Positions 7,595 through 57,782 of a stretch of 64,000 nt of DNA are shown one piece after another; position 1 is the stretch's first letter, and each line of letters begins with the position of its first letter. The notes beneath the pieces are model-generated. The model saw only the letters and a program-made list of their open reading frames with translations. It had not been told where the DNA came from and did not search any database. The stretch comes from Methanothermococcus thermolithotrophicus DSM 2095 (GTDB lineage Archaea > AGJL01 > Methanococci > Methanococcales > Methanococcaceae): NCBI RefSeq assembly GCF_946463545.1, contig NZ_OX296583.1, positions 248,001 through 312,000 on the forward strand. Reading direction: 5' to 3'. The translations under genes and the position numbers were made by a program.

Positions 7595-8279
7595 GTTAAA
7601 ATAAGACCATAGTGGGATGGAAATACCACAAAATATTTAATAGAATTTGCACAAAATCTAAGTTAAAATAAGACCATAGTGGGATGGAAATTTTAAATAA
7701 TAAAGTTCCTTTGTTAAATCATTATTGCGTTAAAATAAGACCATAGTGGGATGGAAATTCTCCTGAGCAAACAACACAAAGATTGAAATTACTGGTTAAA
7801 ATAAGACCATAGTGGGATGGAAATTTTCTTCGATGTCTTCTTCTGATAAGTTTGCAAACGAGTTAAAATAAGACCATAGTGGGATGGAAATTTTCTTCGA
7901 TGTCTTCTTCTGATAAGTTTGCAAACGAGTTAAAATAAGACCATAGTGGGATGGAAATGCTTCTTTGTTGCGGTATTTTTGATAAGCTATTTTGAGTTAA
8001 AATAAGACCATAGTAGGATGGAAATACGTATATGGTACCATCTTGAGATATAGCAGGGGAGTTAAAATAAGACCATAGTGGGATGGAAATCTAATAGCCC
8101 GTGCTGCTCTAAGATTTGACAGGTTAAAATAAGACCATAGTGGGATGGAAATATATCTTGAAATCTATGTAGCTAGACTTGGAACCTTGTTAAAATAAGA
8201 CCTTGTGGGATGGAAATTATGCGTTGTTTGTGTTTATAACTCTTGTTGCTGTTGTTAAAATCAGACCATTTATTTTTGG
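7595..8279 (+). CRISPR. CRISPR array, 10 repeats plus decayed terminal repeat
   Basis: A 30-bp repeat starting GTTAAAATAAGACC and ending GGGATGGAAAT begins at 7595, 7662, 7729, 7795, 7862, 7929, 7996, 8061, 8123 and 8189. Spacers are 32-37 bp. The repeat at 7996 has one G-to-A change, the one at 8189 is altered around positions 13-16 and one base short, and a last copy at 8254 keeps only its first half. The repeat end GGATGGAAAT resembles the crRNA 5' handle of type I/III systems, so transcription is probably on plus from the left. The spacers at 7825-7861 and 7892-7928 are identical. No cas gene is in the window. Confidence 0.97.
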
Positions 8280-11340: not shown

Positions 11341-11384
11341 TTCGTTTACGAAGTAAGCGAGCAACGAAATGCAAAGCATTTCGT
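11341..11384. repeat. Hairpin element upstream of thi4 (copy C)
   Basis: TTCGT-tt-ACGAA (11341-11352), then AGTAAGCGAGCA, then a perfect 9-bp stem ACGAAATGC-aaa-GCATTTCGT (11364-11384). The same right-hand hairpin, with a different loop, is found inside the hef gene at 56062-56082, followed there by a matching TTGCTC segment. That shared stretch ties the two together as copies of one mobile or amplified element. Confidence 0.7.
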
Positions 11385-12391: not shown

Positions 12392-12407
12392 GTACTCACC
12401 AAATATA

Positions 12408-12640
12408 TTAATACCATATTATTACCTTAATTAAAAATTATTAATATATATAGGTTATGGTAGGTGATAAGTTATGTTATATATAATTCACTGAAAAGAT
12501 ATTAATACTATATTATTACCTTAATTAAAAATTATTAATATATATAGGTTATGGTAAATGATAGATTGAGTAACACATAATTCACTAAAAAGATATAATA
12601 AATTACCTTATTATTAAAATTATTCATTATAATTATCGTA
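12408..12640 (+). repeat. 94-bp tandem duplication of the thiI leader, third diverged copy
   Basis: A unit of 94 bp (12408-12501) is repeated at 12502-12595 with few changes; both contain ATTATTACCTTAATTAAAAA and end with ATTCACTGAAAAGATA/ATTCACTAAAAAGATA. A third, shorter and more diverged copy from about 12596 runs into the actual ribosome site. The GGTGATAA of the third copy serves thiI; the same GGTGATAA followed by an ATG occurs in copy 1, whose reading frame stops after six codons. Confidence 0.85.
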
Positions 12641-15905: not shown

Positions 15906-15966
15906 AATCACCTGAACGAAGTGTAAGGTGAGCTGTAAAAATCCGAAGGATTTTTACTCAATCACC
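15906..15966. repeat. Hairpin element inserted at a ribosome site (copy E)
   Basis: A 47-bp core (15913-15959) starting TGAACGAAGTGTAAGGTGAG and holding the perfect 10-bp stem GTAAAAATCC-gaa-GGATTTTTAC is flanked by direct repeats AATCACC (15906-15912 and 15960-15966). The left copy is the GGTGATT ribosome site of the NIL-ferredoxin gene. The first 20 bases match copy D while the hairpin arms differ, yet remain self-complementary. Confidence 0.78.
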
Positions 15967-34209: not shown

Positions 34210-36183
34210 ATGGGAAAAGAAATTATTTCTAACGAGGATTTTTATAAAAAATTTATAGAATGTTTAGAAAAGGGGGAGAATTTTAAGTTAGAAAATTGTA
34301 TTGTTAGGGGAGATGTTGATATTAGAGATATTTATAATAGAATTAAGTGTGATGAAAAATTAAAAGGGTTAATTACTGAACAAAAAGATAAAGAAAGTGC
34401 AATCGTAGATAAAAATGTGATAACTATAAATGCAGGTATAAACCTTAGTCTCCATAATGTTGAATTCAATGGTAATTTTCAAATGTTCAAGGACAAAATA
34501 GAAATTGTGGAAACATTTAAGAAAATATCTATTAAAATACTATTGGAAGATGTAAATTTTATAGAATCTACATTTAAAGGAAGAGTTAATTTTAGTTGTT
34601 CAGAAATTCAAGGTGAGGTCAGCATTATAGATTCAACATTTATGGAAGAGGTTATTTTTTGGAAATCAATATTTAAAGAGAACGTCTATTTTGAAAAATC
34701 AGATAAATTTGAAAATAATTTGGTAATTAAAGGTGAAATTAATTTTACTGACTCAATATTTGAGAAAAATGTTTATTTTATGGATTCGATAGTATTTAAA
34801 AAGAAAGTTGATTTTAATAACTCAACCTTTAAGGGAAATGCGCATTTTAAGAATTTAGTATTTGAAAAAATATTAGACTTTAGTAGTTCAACGTTTGAAG
34901 GGAATATTAATTTTAATGGTTTGATAATATTTGAAAGAGAAGTAAATTTTAGAAACTCAACATTTGAAAAAAATGTTGGTTTTTGGTATCCGAAATTTAA
35001 ATGGGATGTTATTTTTGAAGGTTCAGAATTTAAAAAAATGGCGAATTTTCATGGTTTAACAGTAGAAGGAAAAGCGAATTTTAACAGTTCAATATTTAGT
35101 GGAAAAACTTATTTTAGTCATTCGACATTTGAGAAATGGATTAGTTTTAGAGGTTCAGAATTTAAAGGAGATGCCAACTTTAGCGATTCAAAATTTAAAG
35201 AAAAGGCTGAATTTTCTTATTTAACATTTGAGGAGAATGTTAATTTTTCGAATGTTATTTTCAATAAAGCAAAATTTTTCAATGCAATCTTTAAATCTCG
35301 TGCAGATTTTAGAGGAATCTGTTTTGTGTTGTTATCTTTTGTTGATTGCACATTTGAGGATTTAGCGTTATTTAGAAAAGGTAAAATTAAGTTTAAAAAA
35401 TATAAAAGAAATAATATTAGTTTAAAAAAACCAGATAGACAATGGGTACATACAATAATTAATATAATTAAAGATAAATGCTTAGTAATCTTTCTTGATG
35501 TCCAATTTCTAAACAAACATACAAAAATAGAGAATTTCTCATTGTCAAAAACATCCTTTTTAAAGACAGATGTTAGAGAAGTGATGCTATTATGTGACAT
35601 AAAAAAAGAAAAGATTTTAAGCCATAAATTTCTAAAAAATGATGAAAATAATGTAGGAATATGCGAAGAAGCATATAATATCCTTAAAAACCACTTAGAT
35701 TATAAATCTGTTCTTGCAGAATATAGAAATTTAAGAATATCCATTGAAAATAATAGGACCTATGAAGAGGCTTCAAATTTATATAAAATGGAAATGAGGT
35801 TGAAGAAGGAATTTTCAAGAAATAAGTTTGAAAAATTTGCTATTTGGTTATATGGTGCAATATCCGACTACGGAGAATCAATATTCATGCCAATATTCTG
35901 GTTAGTTATATTAATTTTTGTTGTAACACCAAGTGCTTTAATGTATTCTAACACCATTAGTTCGTTTGTTAATACATTAATTCAACAAAATATTTCAAAT
36001 AATGAGTATTTATTTGTCATTAATTATGCTTCATATTTACCGGCGGTATTGGGGGCTAAATTCTACATAGGGGATGGTAAAACCTTATTGAATACAATAA
36101 TATATTGCTTATATAGCATATTATCAATAATTATAATGGGTAATCTCTATATAGCCCTTAGAAGAAGATTAAGCAGAAAATAA
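34210..36183 (+). CDS. Pentapeptide-repeat protein with C-terminal membrane pair
   Basis: About 657 residues. Residues 100-395 or so are a long run of pentapeptide-like repeats with Phe at the core every 5-6 positions (NFSDSKFKEKAEF, NFNSSIFSGKTYF), expected to fold as a right-handed quadrilateral beta-helix. After a soluble segment with EYRNLRISIENN and a charged helix there are two hydrophobic helices (FMPIFWLVILIFVV and TIIYCLYSILSIIIMG) around a short loop YLPAVLGAKFYIGDG, a two-helix channel-like layout without a GYG filter. Similar repeat-plus-channel proteins exist in prokaryotes; the role is unknown. ATG 34210 follows GGGGGAAATT. Phe-rich and very AT-rich. Confidence 0.75.
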   Translation: MGKEIISNEDFYKKFIECLEKGENFKLENCIVRGDVDIRDIYNRIKCDEKLKGLITEQKDKESAIVDKNVITINAGINLSLHNVEFNGNFQMFKDKIEIVETFKKISIKILLEDVNFIESTFKGRVNFSCSEIQGEVSIIDSTFMEEVIFWKSIFKENVYFEKSDKFENNLVIKGEINFTDSIFEKNVYFMDSIVFKKKVDFNNSTFKGNAHFKNLVFEKILDFSSSTFEGNINFNGLIIFEREVNFRNSTFEKNVGFWYPKFKWDVIFEGSEFKKMANFHGLTVEGKANFNSSIFSGKTYFSHSTFEKWISFRGSEFKGDANFSDSKFKEKAEFSYLTFEENVNFSNVIFNKAKFFNAIFKSRADFRGICFVLLSFVDCTFEDLALFRKGKIKFKKYKRNNISLKKPDRQWVHTIINIIKDKCLVIFLDVQFLNKHTKIENFSLSKTSFLKTDVREVMLLCDIKKEKILSHKFLKNDENNVGICEEAYNILKNHLDYKSVLAEYRNLRISIENNRTYEEASNLYKMEMRLKKEFSRNKFEKFAIWLYGAISDYGESIFMPIFWLVILIFVVTPSALMYSNTISSFVNTLIQQNISNNEYLFVINYASYLPAVLGAKFYIGDGKTLLNTIIYCLYSILSIIIMGNLYIALRRRLSRK

Positions 36184-47683: not shown

Positions 47684-47836
47684 TTAGGACTTCATGGGTA
47701 AGTACCACCATTTGATAATTTGATACATACAATAAAAACTCAAAGAGTTTTTATAACTCATCAAGCTACGCTCATCGATAGTTAAAACAGGTGCTTGTAT
47801 TTTGAAATTGCACACTGTCTTTTTTAAATGATCCAT
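47684..47836 (-). CDS. Possible 50-residue reading frame, perhaps a gene fragment
   Basis: ATG 47836 with GGTGTAATTG upstream runs 50 codons to TAA. The product starts MDHLKKTVCNFKIQ; its middle is read through a hairpin element (DERSLMSYKNSLSF). I do not recognise it. It may be a gene remnant in the rearranged gap, or chance. Confidence 0.2.
   Translation of the reverse strand: MDHLKKTVCNFKIQAPVLTIDERSLMSYKNSLSFYCMYQIIKWWYLPMKS
47734..47783. repeat. Hairpin element (copy G)
   Basis: Perfect 8-bp stem AAAAACTC-aaa-GAGTTTTT (47734-47752) next to ATAACTCATCAAGCTACGCTC. On minus the order is GAGCGTAGCTTGATGAGTTAT then the hairpin, which parallels copy D (GAACGTAGTGAAGGTGAGCTAT then hairpin) base for base in most positions, with different arm sequence. 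Confidence 0.6.
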
Positions 47837-55319: not shown

Positions 55320-57782
55320 TTACACATTATACTCCTTTGTTATAACTTCCCTTATCTTTTTAGCGGTTTTTTCACCAATTCCTTCAACCTTCATTAACTC
55401 ATATTTATTGGCGTTAAATATCTTTTCTATGGATTTAAACTCCAATAACAAACTTTCGGCAAGTGCTGGACCTACTTCAGGAAGACTTTCAACAATGAAC
55501 TTTTGTCTTTCCCTCAAAGACATAGGTCTTTTTCCATACCTTACTGAGACCGCCCTTTTTTCCTTTAACTGTTCCCTTTCTGCTATCTTTATCAAAATAT
55601 TTGCAGTTTCTTTGATGTCCTTTGAAAATAGAACTGGAATACCAAAGTCTAAAATAATGGATAGTATGGTACCTTGAATAACGTTTTGGTGTAATCTATT
55701 AAACTCATTTCCTTCAATGATTAGAATTGGTTTTTCATATTTTTTGAGCTCCGAAAGCTGTTTAAAAAGCCTTTTGTCGATTATGGATTCAGCAAAATCT
55801 TCTGCAATTTTTCTCTCCACTGCAACTCTATCACTTAGTACATAATCCCCAATTTCCAAGGTTTTAAATTCAATGTTTGCTTTATCCACCAAATACCTTC
55901 CAATATGCCTTTCCCTCGTATCTACAATTATTTTTATTTTGTGGTTATCTTTTTCATTTTTCTTTAACAAACTGTCTGAATCCGCTTTTTCAATACCTGT
56001 GCCATAATTTCTTAAATCCAAATATTCTCCTTTAACTCTCCCAGTACCGGTTGTAAGTTGAACGAAATGCTTCGCATTTCGTTGCTCTTCGCTCCTTCGG
56101 AGCTCCGATTGAACAGTTTTTTTAGCATGTTCTTTATATTCCTCTTTCTTCTTTTTATCTTCATTTTTATACCCTAACTGTTCAGCTCGCTTTTCCAGAT
56201 CTTCAGATTTAGTTATTTCATTTACTTCTGAAATAACCTCCTGATGTGTGTCTTGCCATAGCGTCTGTTTTTCTAATCTTCTTTCCTGTTCTCTTTCTTT
56301 AAGCTTCTCATTTAGTATTCTTTGCATATCCTTAAGAATTTTCTTCATATTCTTTTCTTTTGATATCGCAGAACGATAGTAACCTTCGTCCCTACTGTTT
56401 CTTGTTATTAAAATTATGACCTCCCCACCTTCACCTCTCGCAGCTCTTCCCCTCCTTTGGATAAATCTTATCTCCGATGGAACCGGCTCATAGAATATTA
56501 CATAATTTACACTGGATATATCGATACCTTCTTCAGAGACACTCGTTGAAACAAGTACATCAACATTGTTTTTAAACTCTTCAATAGCCTTTACCTGCTC
56601 TTTTTGTGTCATTCCCTTTCCGTCCTTATTCGACTGACCAACAAACATTATAGCATCTATCCCACGATCCTTAAGATTTTTTACAATTTTACATACTGTA
56701 TCCCGATATTGAGCAAAGACTATTACTTTTTCGTTTTCTGTTTTTAGGATTTCCTCCACGATTTCAGCTAATTTATCAAGTTTTGGATGCTCAATATCAA
56801 GTTTCTGTAGACTATTAACCACTTTCAAAATTCTGGCATCGTTTAGGATAGATTTTGCAGATTTTGTATTTTGAGTTTTTAGCCTTTCATAGTAGTTTAA
56901 AAATGTACTTTTTCCCTGAGTTTCAAGTACTTCTATGGCATGTTCTATTTTTAGGGCTTCGGAAGCTATTTTCACCAGTTCATACTTTTTATTGTCATCT
57001 AAAGCCATTATTTTTTTCTGAAGTCCTAAAAGTTCGGTTTTAGTAACATTTATCGAAAATATTATATTATTATCCTTCAATACCCTCAACCTATCCTTTA
57101 AGGCGGATCTCAATAACTTAATATTTTCTTCAAATTCTTCAGGTAAATCGACCCTCTTTGCCCTTAATTTAACCTTGGCAACGTAGGGTTTTACATCGTT
57201 ATCGTCTTCGGTTTTGATTTCAACATGTTCTATACCAAGATTCTCACATACCTCTAAAATTCTATCGATATTTGAACCTGGGGAAGCCGTAAGCCCTAAA
57301 ACATGGGTTTTTTCTTTAAATTTACTTGCTACAAAAGTATAAGAATGGTTTCCAGTTGTATGGTGGGCTTCATCTGCTATTAAAAGAACAAAATCATCAA
57401 TATTAATCCTGCTAGCAATTATATCGTTCTCGACTATCTGGGGAGTGGTGATAAATACCTTACCTTTTTTCCACAAGGCTTCTCTCTTACTTGGGGGCGT
57501 TTTTCCAGTTAAAACCATTATATTGTCTTCACCAATGTTTAAAAACTGGGTCATGCTCCTATAATGTTGTTCAACCAAAGGTCTTGACGGAGCTATAATT
57601 AAAATTTTTCCGTCTTTTTTTGATAGTATGCCTGCAATTGTCAGAGCTGCGATGGCAGTTTTTCCAAGACCGGTTCCTAAAACACATAATGTATTCTTTT
57701 TTAATGCATTTGCAACAACGAGCTGCTGATAAATTCTTGATTCAATTGTATTTGGTTTTATGATGGGATGATCAATATACAT
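55320..57782 (-). CDS. hef: Hef helicase-nuclease (XPF/FANCM-like)
   Basis: 820 residues. It processes stalled or branched replication forks. Helicase part (about 1-500): LGTGLGKTAIAAL (Walker A), IADEAHHTT (DEAH), GLTASPGS, QRRGRAARGEGGEV (motif VI). Nuclease part (about 620-750): VDTRERHIGRYL and VERKIAEDFAESI (ERKxxxD). Two helix-hairpin-helix motifs follow (VGPALAESLLLEF, VEGIGEKTAKKIRE). The linker holds a 17-codon in-frame insertion read from a hairpin element at 56058-56114 (SELRRSEEQRNAKHF). Confidence 0.95.
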   Translation of the reverse strand: MYIDHPIIKPNTIESRIYQQLVVANALKKNTLCVLGTGLGKTAIAALTIAGILSKKDGKILIIAPSRPLVEQHYRSMTQFLNIGEDNIMVLTGKTPPSKREALWKKGKVFITTPQIVENDIIASRINIDDFVLLIADEAHHTTGNHSYTFVASKFKEKTHVLGLTASPGSNIDRILEVCENLGIEHVEIKTEDDNDVKPYVAKVKLRAKRVDLPEEFEENIKLLRSALKDRLRVLKDNNIIFSINVTKTELLGLQKKIMALDDNKKYELVKIASEALKIEHAIEVLETQGKSTFLNYYERLKTQNTKSAKSILNDARILKVVNSLQKLDIEHPKLDKLAEIVEEILKTENEKVIVFAQYRDTVCKIVKNLKDRGIDAIMFVGQSNKDGKGMTQKEQVKAIEEFKNNVDVLVSTSVSEEGIDISSVNYVIFYEPVPSEIRFIQRRGRAARGEGGEVIILITRNSRDEGYYRSAISKEKNMKKILKDMQRILNEKLKEREQERRLEKQTLWQDTHQEVISEVNEITKSEDLEKRAEQLGYKNEDKKKKEEYKEHAKKTVQSELRRSEEQRNAKHFVQLTTGTGRVKGEYLDLRNYGTGIEKADSDSLLKKNEKDNHKIKIIVDTRERHIGRYLVDKANIEFKTLEIGDYVLSDRVAVERKIAEDFAESIIDKRLFKQLSELKKYEKPILIIEGNEFNRLHQNVIQGTILSIILDFGIPVLFSKDIKETANILIKIAEREQLKEKRAVSVRYGKRPMSLRERQKFIVESLPEVGPALAESLLLEFKSIEKIFNANKYELMKVEGIGEKTAKKIREVITKEYNV
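56058..56114. repeat. Hairpin element inserted in frame in hef (copy H)
   Basis: ACGAAATGC-ttc-GCATTTCGT (perfect 9-bp stem, 56062-56082) and GCTCC-ttc-GGAGC (56091-56103) lie between two direct copies of TTGAAC (56058-56063 and 56109-56114). The copies start 51 bases apart, so the insertion adds 17 codons. Removing it would join KKTV directly to QLTTGTG. The left hairpin and following TTGCTC match copy C upstream of thi4. Confidence 0.8.

Follow-up and report, generated by a model that had tools for sequence, protein, structure and literature searches.

Among the described systems of small dispersed repeats, cyanobacterial SDRs are tiny, transposase-less elements that insert into genes and into each other, while PATEs are archaeal, non-autonomous and palindrome-bearing, and share their ends with an insertion sequence (IS). 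REPs carry a GTAG or CGTC tag, and the GTAG REPs go with the RAYT Y1 transposases. PATEs and MITEs of IS200/IS605 in Haloquadratum are among the subjects discussed in PMC3119063. REPs are short multicopy palindromes, which are sometimes intragenic and then encode 20-30 residues, many of the genes concerned being DNA-repair genes (PMC3733652). The palindromic elements of Rickettsia (RPE) are likewise dispersed but, at about 150 nt, larger, and lie in frame in unrelated protein genes, which stay open and gain tens of residues (PMC10969869). Mitochondrial hairpin elements, known from sponges and Allomyces and as the GC clusters of yeast, consist of one or two hairpins, form tandem and nested copies and include a few in-frame insertions; those of Allomyces show no target duplication (PMC2800124). 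So far, in-frame palindromic elements have been regarded as peculiar to Rickettsia and to bacteria rich in REPs. Methanogenic archaea across the Methanococcales show the same phenomenon, with exact filled and empty alleles.

The window, that is, the whole stretch of 64,000 nucleotides analysed here (C1:248001-312000 of G000), belongs to a Methanococcaceae genome of 1,706,496 bases, the sole member of its genus in our set, of which sequence stretches amounting to about 0.68 Mb of 1.7 Mb were read. Its hef gene encodes an 820-aa Hef-type protein (Pfam DEAD, Helicase_C, ERCC4 and HHH) and carries, in frame within the linker, a palindromic unit with the minus-strand layout TCGGAG-hairpin-CGAAGAGC-hairpin-TTCAA, whose 17 residues follow TVQ (Table 1). 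Folded as single-stranded DNA, the unit is predicted to reach -13.5 kcal/mol, against -6.1 +/- 1.9 for shuffles (z = -3.8). The first-pass annotation had described two hairpins between paired TTGAAC repeats, adding 51 nt to the Hef linker, and the hairpins, the repeats (56058-56063 and again 56109-56114, spaced by 51 nt) and the added length all lie where it had put them. The unit is, however, better bounded as TCGGAG...TTCAA, the second TTGAAC being flanking sequence that matches by chance. In the Hef alignment proposed as a check, 16 family orthologs with a readable linker (L036 and L039 were not usable and were left out) contain no counterpart of the 17 residues, but the linker is hypervariable, its length differing among all orthologs compared, so that hef alone cannot prove insertion. 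The putative insertion in hef rests on the family membership of its unit and not on a clean empty allele.

Table 1. Coordinates of the hef unit, of other family members in the window, and of empty and shared target sites (window positions unless a genome is named)
Feature	Position	Strand	Details and basis
hef gene with insert (helicase, linker, ERCC4 nuclease, HHH)	55320..57782	-	ORF, Pfam and family orthologs
Type A palindromic unit in hef	56058..56108	-	51 nt = 17 codons, SELRRSEEQRNAKHFVQ; R1 covariance-model match, 50 bits, E 1.6e-11
Hairpin 2, AACGAAATGC-GAA-GCATTTCGTT	56061..56083	-	10-bp stem 56061-56070/56074-56083, loop TTC on the plus strand; sequence and folding
Hairpin 1, GCTCC-GAA-GGAGC	56091..56103	-	5-bp stem 56091-56095/56099-56103, loop also TTC; sequence and folding
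Left flank GTTCAA, equal to the unit's right end	56109..56114	-	Sequence and junction statistics; target-site duplication not proven
Second copy, CGTTTACGAAGTAAGCGAGCA-hairpin-CTAA	11345..11388	+	Intergenic, about 40 nt from the neighbouring gene's start codon; R1 match, E 4.4e-7
Type B unit, TCACC...GGTGAGCTA-hairpin-TTTAA	15164..15216	+	4 nt from the start codon of a minus-strand ORF, i.e. on its Shine-Dalgarno site; R1, E 3.8e-13
Type B unit	15907..15961	+	7 nt from the start codon of a minus-strand ORF; R1, E 1.6e-14
Weaker family member, 3-base-loop hairpin with 10-bp stem	47728..47778	-	R1, E 1.3e-5
Empty site 1, polyferredoxin	G000 C1:955428-956948		90 nt = 30 aa at GGAGA^TTATG; 15/15 orthologs ungapped without insert
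Empty site 2, AAA-ATPase of G030			45 nt at GGCTT^TGTTTTTG; empty in G031 and G028
Empty site 3, BioF of G029			57 nt at GGATTTA^TTAAG; empty in G030 and G003
Empty site 4, IS605 left end			Filled in G003, empty in G029 at CCCCTA^ATTC
Empty site 5, Hel308 intein of G028			45 nt; empty in G000 at GCAA^TTTC
GGTTTTGGAA^TCAAAACC target with units	G000:C1:592433, 1004013, 1049345, 1088944, 1135044, 1578263 and others

The units follow a common plan, in which T and CGGAG (type A) or CACC (type B) are followed by hairpin 1, GAGC(T/A)A, hairpin 2 with a stem of about 8-10 bp, and a terminal TTCAA, TTTAA or CTAA, over a length of 44-57 nt. Within the window CGAAATGCNNNGCATTTCG occurs twice (56063 and 11365) against 0.11 expected, the second occurrence being the recurrence that the first pass had reported near 11341-11384, with GAGCAACG adjoining as it had said. 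Throughout G000, arms of the hef-type hairpin account for 10 of the 13 occurrences of ACGAAATGC. Hairpins with a 3-base loop and a stem of at least 9 bp number 59 in 464 kb, compared with about 4.3 in shuffles (some 14-fold), and their loops are mainly C-GAA-G or C-AAA-G or the complements of these. BLAST with a tandem array (L009) as query finds 47 places in G000. The genome-wide hairpin search that had been proposed thus reveals a dispersed family, for which a covariance model of 26 units gives at least 131 places in G000 (E <= 0.05), a lower bound with 150 of 2072 candidates scored. Repeats of other kinds are also present in the window, namely a CRISPR array (GTTAAAATAAGACCATAGTRGGATGGAAAT, 7595-8190) with one repeat-spacer unit exactly duplicated (7795 and 7862), a tandem duplication of 94 nt with copies 87% identical (12401-12588), and coding repeats of 33-nt, or eleven-residue, period in an internally repetitive protein (34567-35257).

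In the order as a whole, family members are found by the covariance model (E <= 0.01) in at least 21 of 36 Methanococcales genomes, with at least 43 copies in G004, 36 in G015, 32 in G006, 23 in G003, 18 in G009 and 17 in G028; with 150 candidates scored per genome, all such counts are lower bounds, and the E-values, from a short calibration, are rough. Six of the seven g3 genomes yielded no copy among the candidates scored with the model. Hairpin richness is lineage-specific in 40-kb samples too, in agreement with the model counts. The genomes covered by the phylum-wide model search were those of the order Methanococcales and none beyond, and plasmid and phage collections searched for units gave no match. 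Pattern scans of GTDB and IMG/VR for CGAAATGCNNNGCATTTCG returned, among the matches listed, mostly unrelated chance or other palindromes, for example termite-gut Desulfovibrio repeats, and these were set aside. The same 19-nt hairpin does occur within larger, unrelated multi-hairpin repeats of Desulfovibrio/Deltaproteobacteria MAGs (L095, L108, L113, L132, L153, L183 and similar).

Units also stand head to tail and inside other repeats, giving arrays and longer mosaics. Mosaics with extra hairpins include an insert in a polyferredoxin gene, and still more hairpins are found in an array at C1:1310899. Different units share one repeated target, GGTTTTGGAA^TCAAAACC, a case of nesting inside another palindromic repeat. 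A second hairpin family, with other termini, forms 3-base-loop arrays joined by TCGA or GACTC (L234, G000:C1:861551-861740; 427097-427200; 1108754-1108893), and dense hairpin arrays with many loop sequences in G004 (L292, 14197-16277) apparently belong to a further, lineage-specific family.

The units inserted whole, as exact filled and empty alleles at five genes or elements demonstrate in a comparison that covered one genome per species. All five inserted pieces begin with T and end with A, and their placement is ambiguous by only 1-4 bases. In BioF of G000 a different unit, of 45 nt, occupies the same spot as the 57-nt unit of G029, and because the two genomes carry different units there, independent hits on one site are suggested. 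BioF is hit at one site by different units in two families (L390, L355), a possible insertion hot spot. The first-pass reading of a short mobile palindrome surviving in frame, as in Rickettsia, was right in substance, in view of the dispersed copies and of the five exact empty sites elsewhere.

Insertion sites are A^T-like: among 61 well-bounded copies, A precedes the unit in 55 and T follows it in 46. Homology across the junction ranges from 0 to 11 nt and averages 3.8 nt, against 3.3 for randomised flanks (48 non-tandem copies). Since this is close to the randomised value and the empty sites leave so few ambiguous bases, we conclude that insertion is not accompanied by target-site duplication. 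The TTGAAC repeat of hef is not diagnostic, because six bases are within chance plus target preference, and looking for a single TTGAAC at an empty site, as had been advised, would mislead. A fixed target duplication, whether TTGAAC in hef or the TCACC flanking some type B copies, was considered and is ruled out by the averages and the empty sites. This absence speaks against a DDE transposase.

Within G000, ORFs of 110 aa or more contain 19 of the 110 strong places, in either orientation and in different frames, although a few of these ORFs may be spurious or touched only near a terminus. Besides hef, at least 12 further genes of this genome contain in-frame copies. The recognisable hosts, eight with Pfam support and the others read from sequence, are Hef, BioF, a CobN/BchH-like protein, a YgiQ-type radical SAM protein, Hel308, a TfrB-like Fe-S protein, CofD, an acylphosphatase, a metallo-beta-lactamase-fold protein, HemC, a 217-aa membrane protein, the intein of a secretion-type ATPase and an ASKHA-type ferredoxin protein with two inserts. 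The polyferredoxin insert, a longer mosaic, was found separately. Hel308 has a copy in its helicase part (C1:1458440) and a longer insertion in its intein, and for both Hel308 and HemC the alignment to solved relatives breaks off at the insert or a little ahead of it. A TnpB-like gene of G028 also has a unit in frame, close to the C-terminus (L410, G028:C1:13499).

About one copy in six is intragenic in a genome that is mostly coding, so that most hits on genes have presumably been lost. The elements do not appear to be built to stay open in many frames, a possibility dismissed because units have 2.08 of their six frames open and shuffles 2.06; units being no more open than shuffles, it appears that selection followed insertion and left the in-frame copies. 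The elements thereby explain odd stretches in methanogen proteins that one would otherwise take for domains specific to a lineage, and conserved enzymes such as Hel308, HemC, CofD, BioF and Hef become a system for asking how 15-30 extra residues are tolerated.

The stems are maintained while their sequences drift. In the 26-unit alignment 95% of cells are paired, with 71 double changes against 1 single, and stem covariation is 0.60 compared with 0.22 in shuffled alignments and at most 0.10 when the partner is slid by one to three columns; as the alignment was seeded from visible hairpins, stem perfection is somewhat inflated. A perfect 8-bp stem is present in 88 of 110 copies, with 54 different arm sequences, and the imperfect pairs in these 110 copies are 11 G.T and 10 A.C. 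RNA-level selection on one strand would be expected to favour G.U over A.C. Because double changes prevail and G.T is not in excess over A.C, upkeep of the stem at the DNA level is the better reading, and the arms of hairpin 2 are most likely kept complementary by arm-to-arm copying when the element is a folded single strand. In hairpin 1, tandem GA/GA mismatches occur in 21 hairpins, against 6 for the next non-complementary type, and the neighbouring pairs change. Sheared pairs are possible for GA/GA and impossible for the complementary TC/TC, which makes the strand bearing the GAA loops the probable functional one.

Type B units form a sub-family with a distinct location. In the stretches read, 10 of about 18 array-leading type B units start 4-7 nt from an opposite-strand start codon, so that their TCACC end is the complement of the ribosome-binding GGTGA. 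Several single type B copies have TCACC on both sides. The units may have come to lie at Shine-Dalgarno sites either by insertion through matching or by survival because the binding site is kept, and from their position an effect on translation is possible.

Taken as a whole, the hef insert is very probably a copy of a mobile DNA element that is non-autonomous and belongs to the order Methanococcales. Such a unit would integrate whole, as T...A, at an A^T-like site and without target-site duplication, as is seen at the empty sites, and head-to-tail and nested integration, likewise seen, would build the arrays and longer mosaics. Most copies would persist between genes or on Shine-Dalgarno sites, and those in genes where they add whole codons, with no stop in the frame used, at a tolerant place such as the Hef linker; the frame is observed and selection would be the sieve. 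One arm of hairpin 2 would be copied from the other within the folded single-stranded element, and the moving form would most likely be this folded single-stranded DNA, on the strand with GAA loops and tandem G.A pairs. The mobilising enzyme would be supplied in trans, none having been found in the searches made. More tentatively, the units could represent a separate class of hairpin DNA of about 50 nt, reaching A^T sites in folded single-stranded form and without a known transposase family, with arm rewriting that leaves stems perfect and sequence drifting, a Shine-Dalgarno-homing lineage whose end preserves the ribosome-binding sequence, and in-frame remains that add protein segments; we hold this wider view to be possible rather than probable.

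As to the mover, an IS200/IS605-type Y1 (HUH) transposase, acting via hairpins near an IS end as for PATEs and REPs, is an unlikely candidate, in spite of the hairpin ends and missing target-site duplication that it would account for, and of the resemblance of the right end TTCAA to the IS608 cleavage site TCAA. Y1 genes are present in G003, G027 and G029 and truncated remains in G004 and G015, and in G003 a unit lies beside tnpA; yet G000, the richest genome, has no Y1 transposase match (PF01797, E <= 0.001) in a search in which control genomes gave matches, and the left base is mostly A, with no fixed tetranucleotide. The unit beside tnpA, at 150 bp, is moreover itself inserted, as the same IS605 left end is free of it in G029, which disposes of the candidate explanation of the unit as an IS605 end. 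Two families have multiple copies of a transposase-like gene whose 3' part holds a unit (L010, L013, L016, L018, L023; G025, G003), and the unit seems to be hitch-hiking on an IS across families. Near-identical short IS605-type end copies with an embedded unit in G027 (L343, L344; six equal-score model matches) read as MITE-like derivatives spreading the unit.

The constant T...A termini at the five empty sites and the strong A^T preference suggest a defined cut, and they weigh against spread in the absence of any transposase, through template switching in replication or through repair with hairpin-forming single strands and short-homology joins. Arms that co-vary as though copied from each other, a flank homology that varies so widely and the common head-to-tail arrays would suit that process, but mean junction homology is not clearly above that of randomised flanks, and we give it only a minor chance. 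Spread by way of RNA, an idea put forward for the double-hairpin elements of fungal mitochondria, is far less probable. Its attraction is the absence of target duplication, the argument used for the Allomyces elements (PMC2800124), together with a reverse-transcriptase-like ORF in G000; against this, RVT_1 has no match in the 36 other genomes searched, of which many contain tens of copies, stems show G.T no more often than A.C, and both orientations of the unit occur within genes. The reverse transcriptase was accordingly rejected as the mover, G000 being the only genome of those searched to have one. The RVT_1 match itself lies at G000:C1:26095-26718 within a 1116-aa ORF, the sole such genome of 37. 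That the palindromes are ancient protein parts, or RNA regulatory stems selected in place, is hardly credible, for although type B units might influence translation from their place on Shine-Dalgarno sites and the Hef linker is variable anyway, orthologs have exact empty sites (the 30 polyferredoxin residues are absent from 15 of 15), the same sequence family appears in unrelated genes and different reading frames, and an Rfam search with the units gave three matches only, all far below the gathering scores and none near cut-off.

The non-autonomous mobile element that we favour can be set beside the systems named at the outset. Like RPEs, the Methanococcales units lie in frame inside otherwise intact, conserved protein genes, as seen in polyferredoxin, AAA-ATPase, BioF, Hel308 and its intein, HemC, CofD, the YgiQ-type protein and Hef. 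They differ from the larger Rickettsia elements in being two-hairpin archaeal units of 44-57 nt that join at a defined A^T and include a sub-family on Shine-Dalgarno sites, the distinction being drawn on such features. The presence of units in hef and hel308 recalls the REPs of DNA-repair genes, but the unit consensus TCGGAG/TCACC...GAGCTA-hairpin-TTCAA has no GTAG or CGTC tag of REP/BIME kind, and the richest genome lacks the Y1 gene (PF01797, E <= 0.001) that a REP and RAYT pair would involve. Insertion without target-site duplication is shared with MITEs derived from IS200/IS605; unlike PATEs, however, the units are insertions in an IS605 end and are not derived from that end, and unlike MITEs of DDE transposases they have differing ends (TCGGAG and TTCAA) and no fixed-length duplication. 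The mitochondrial elements are organellar and have other sequences, and shared ancestry is neither shown nor claimed; the SDRs, from another host domain, are alike by description. The first-pass remark that no such element had been described in methanogens is borne out in the open-licence literature, in which we found no description. Because they lack defining features, as tested, of both REPs and MITEs derived from IS605, the units are regarded as a separate family. They offer a free-living system for asking how tiny hairpins spread without an obvious transposase and why their stems co-vary at the DNA level. Working like RPEs and bacterial REPs, they nevertheless form a separate and apparently undescribed archaeal family.
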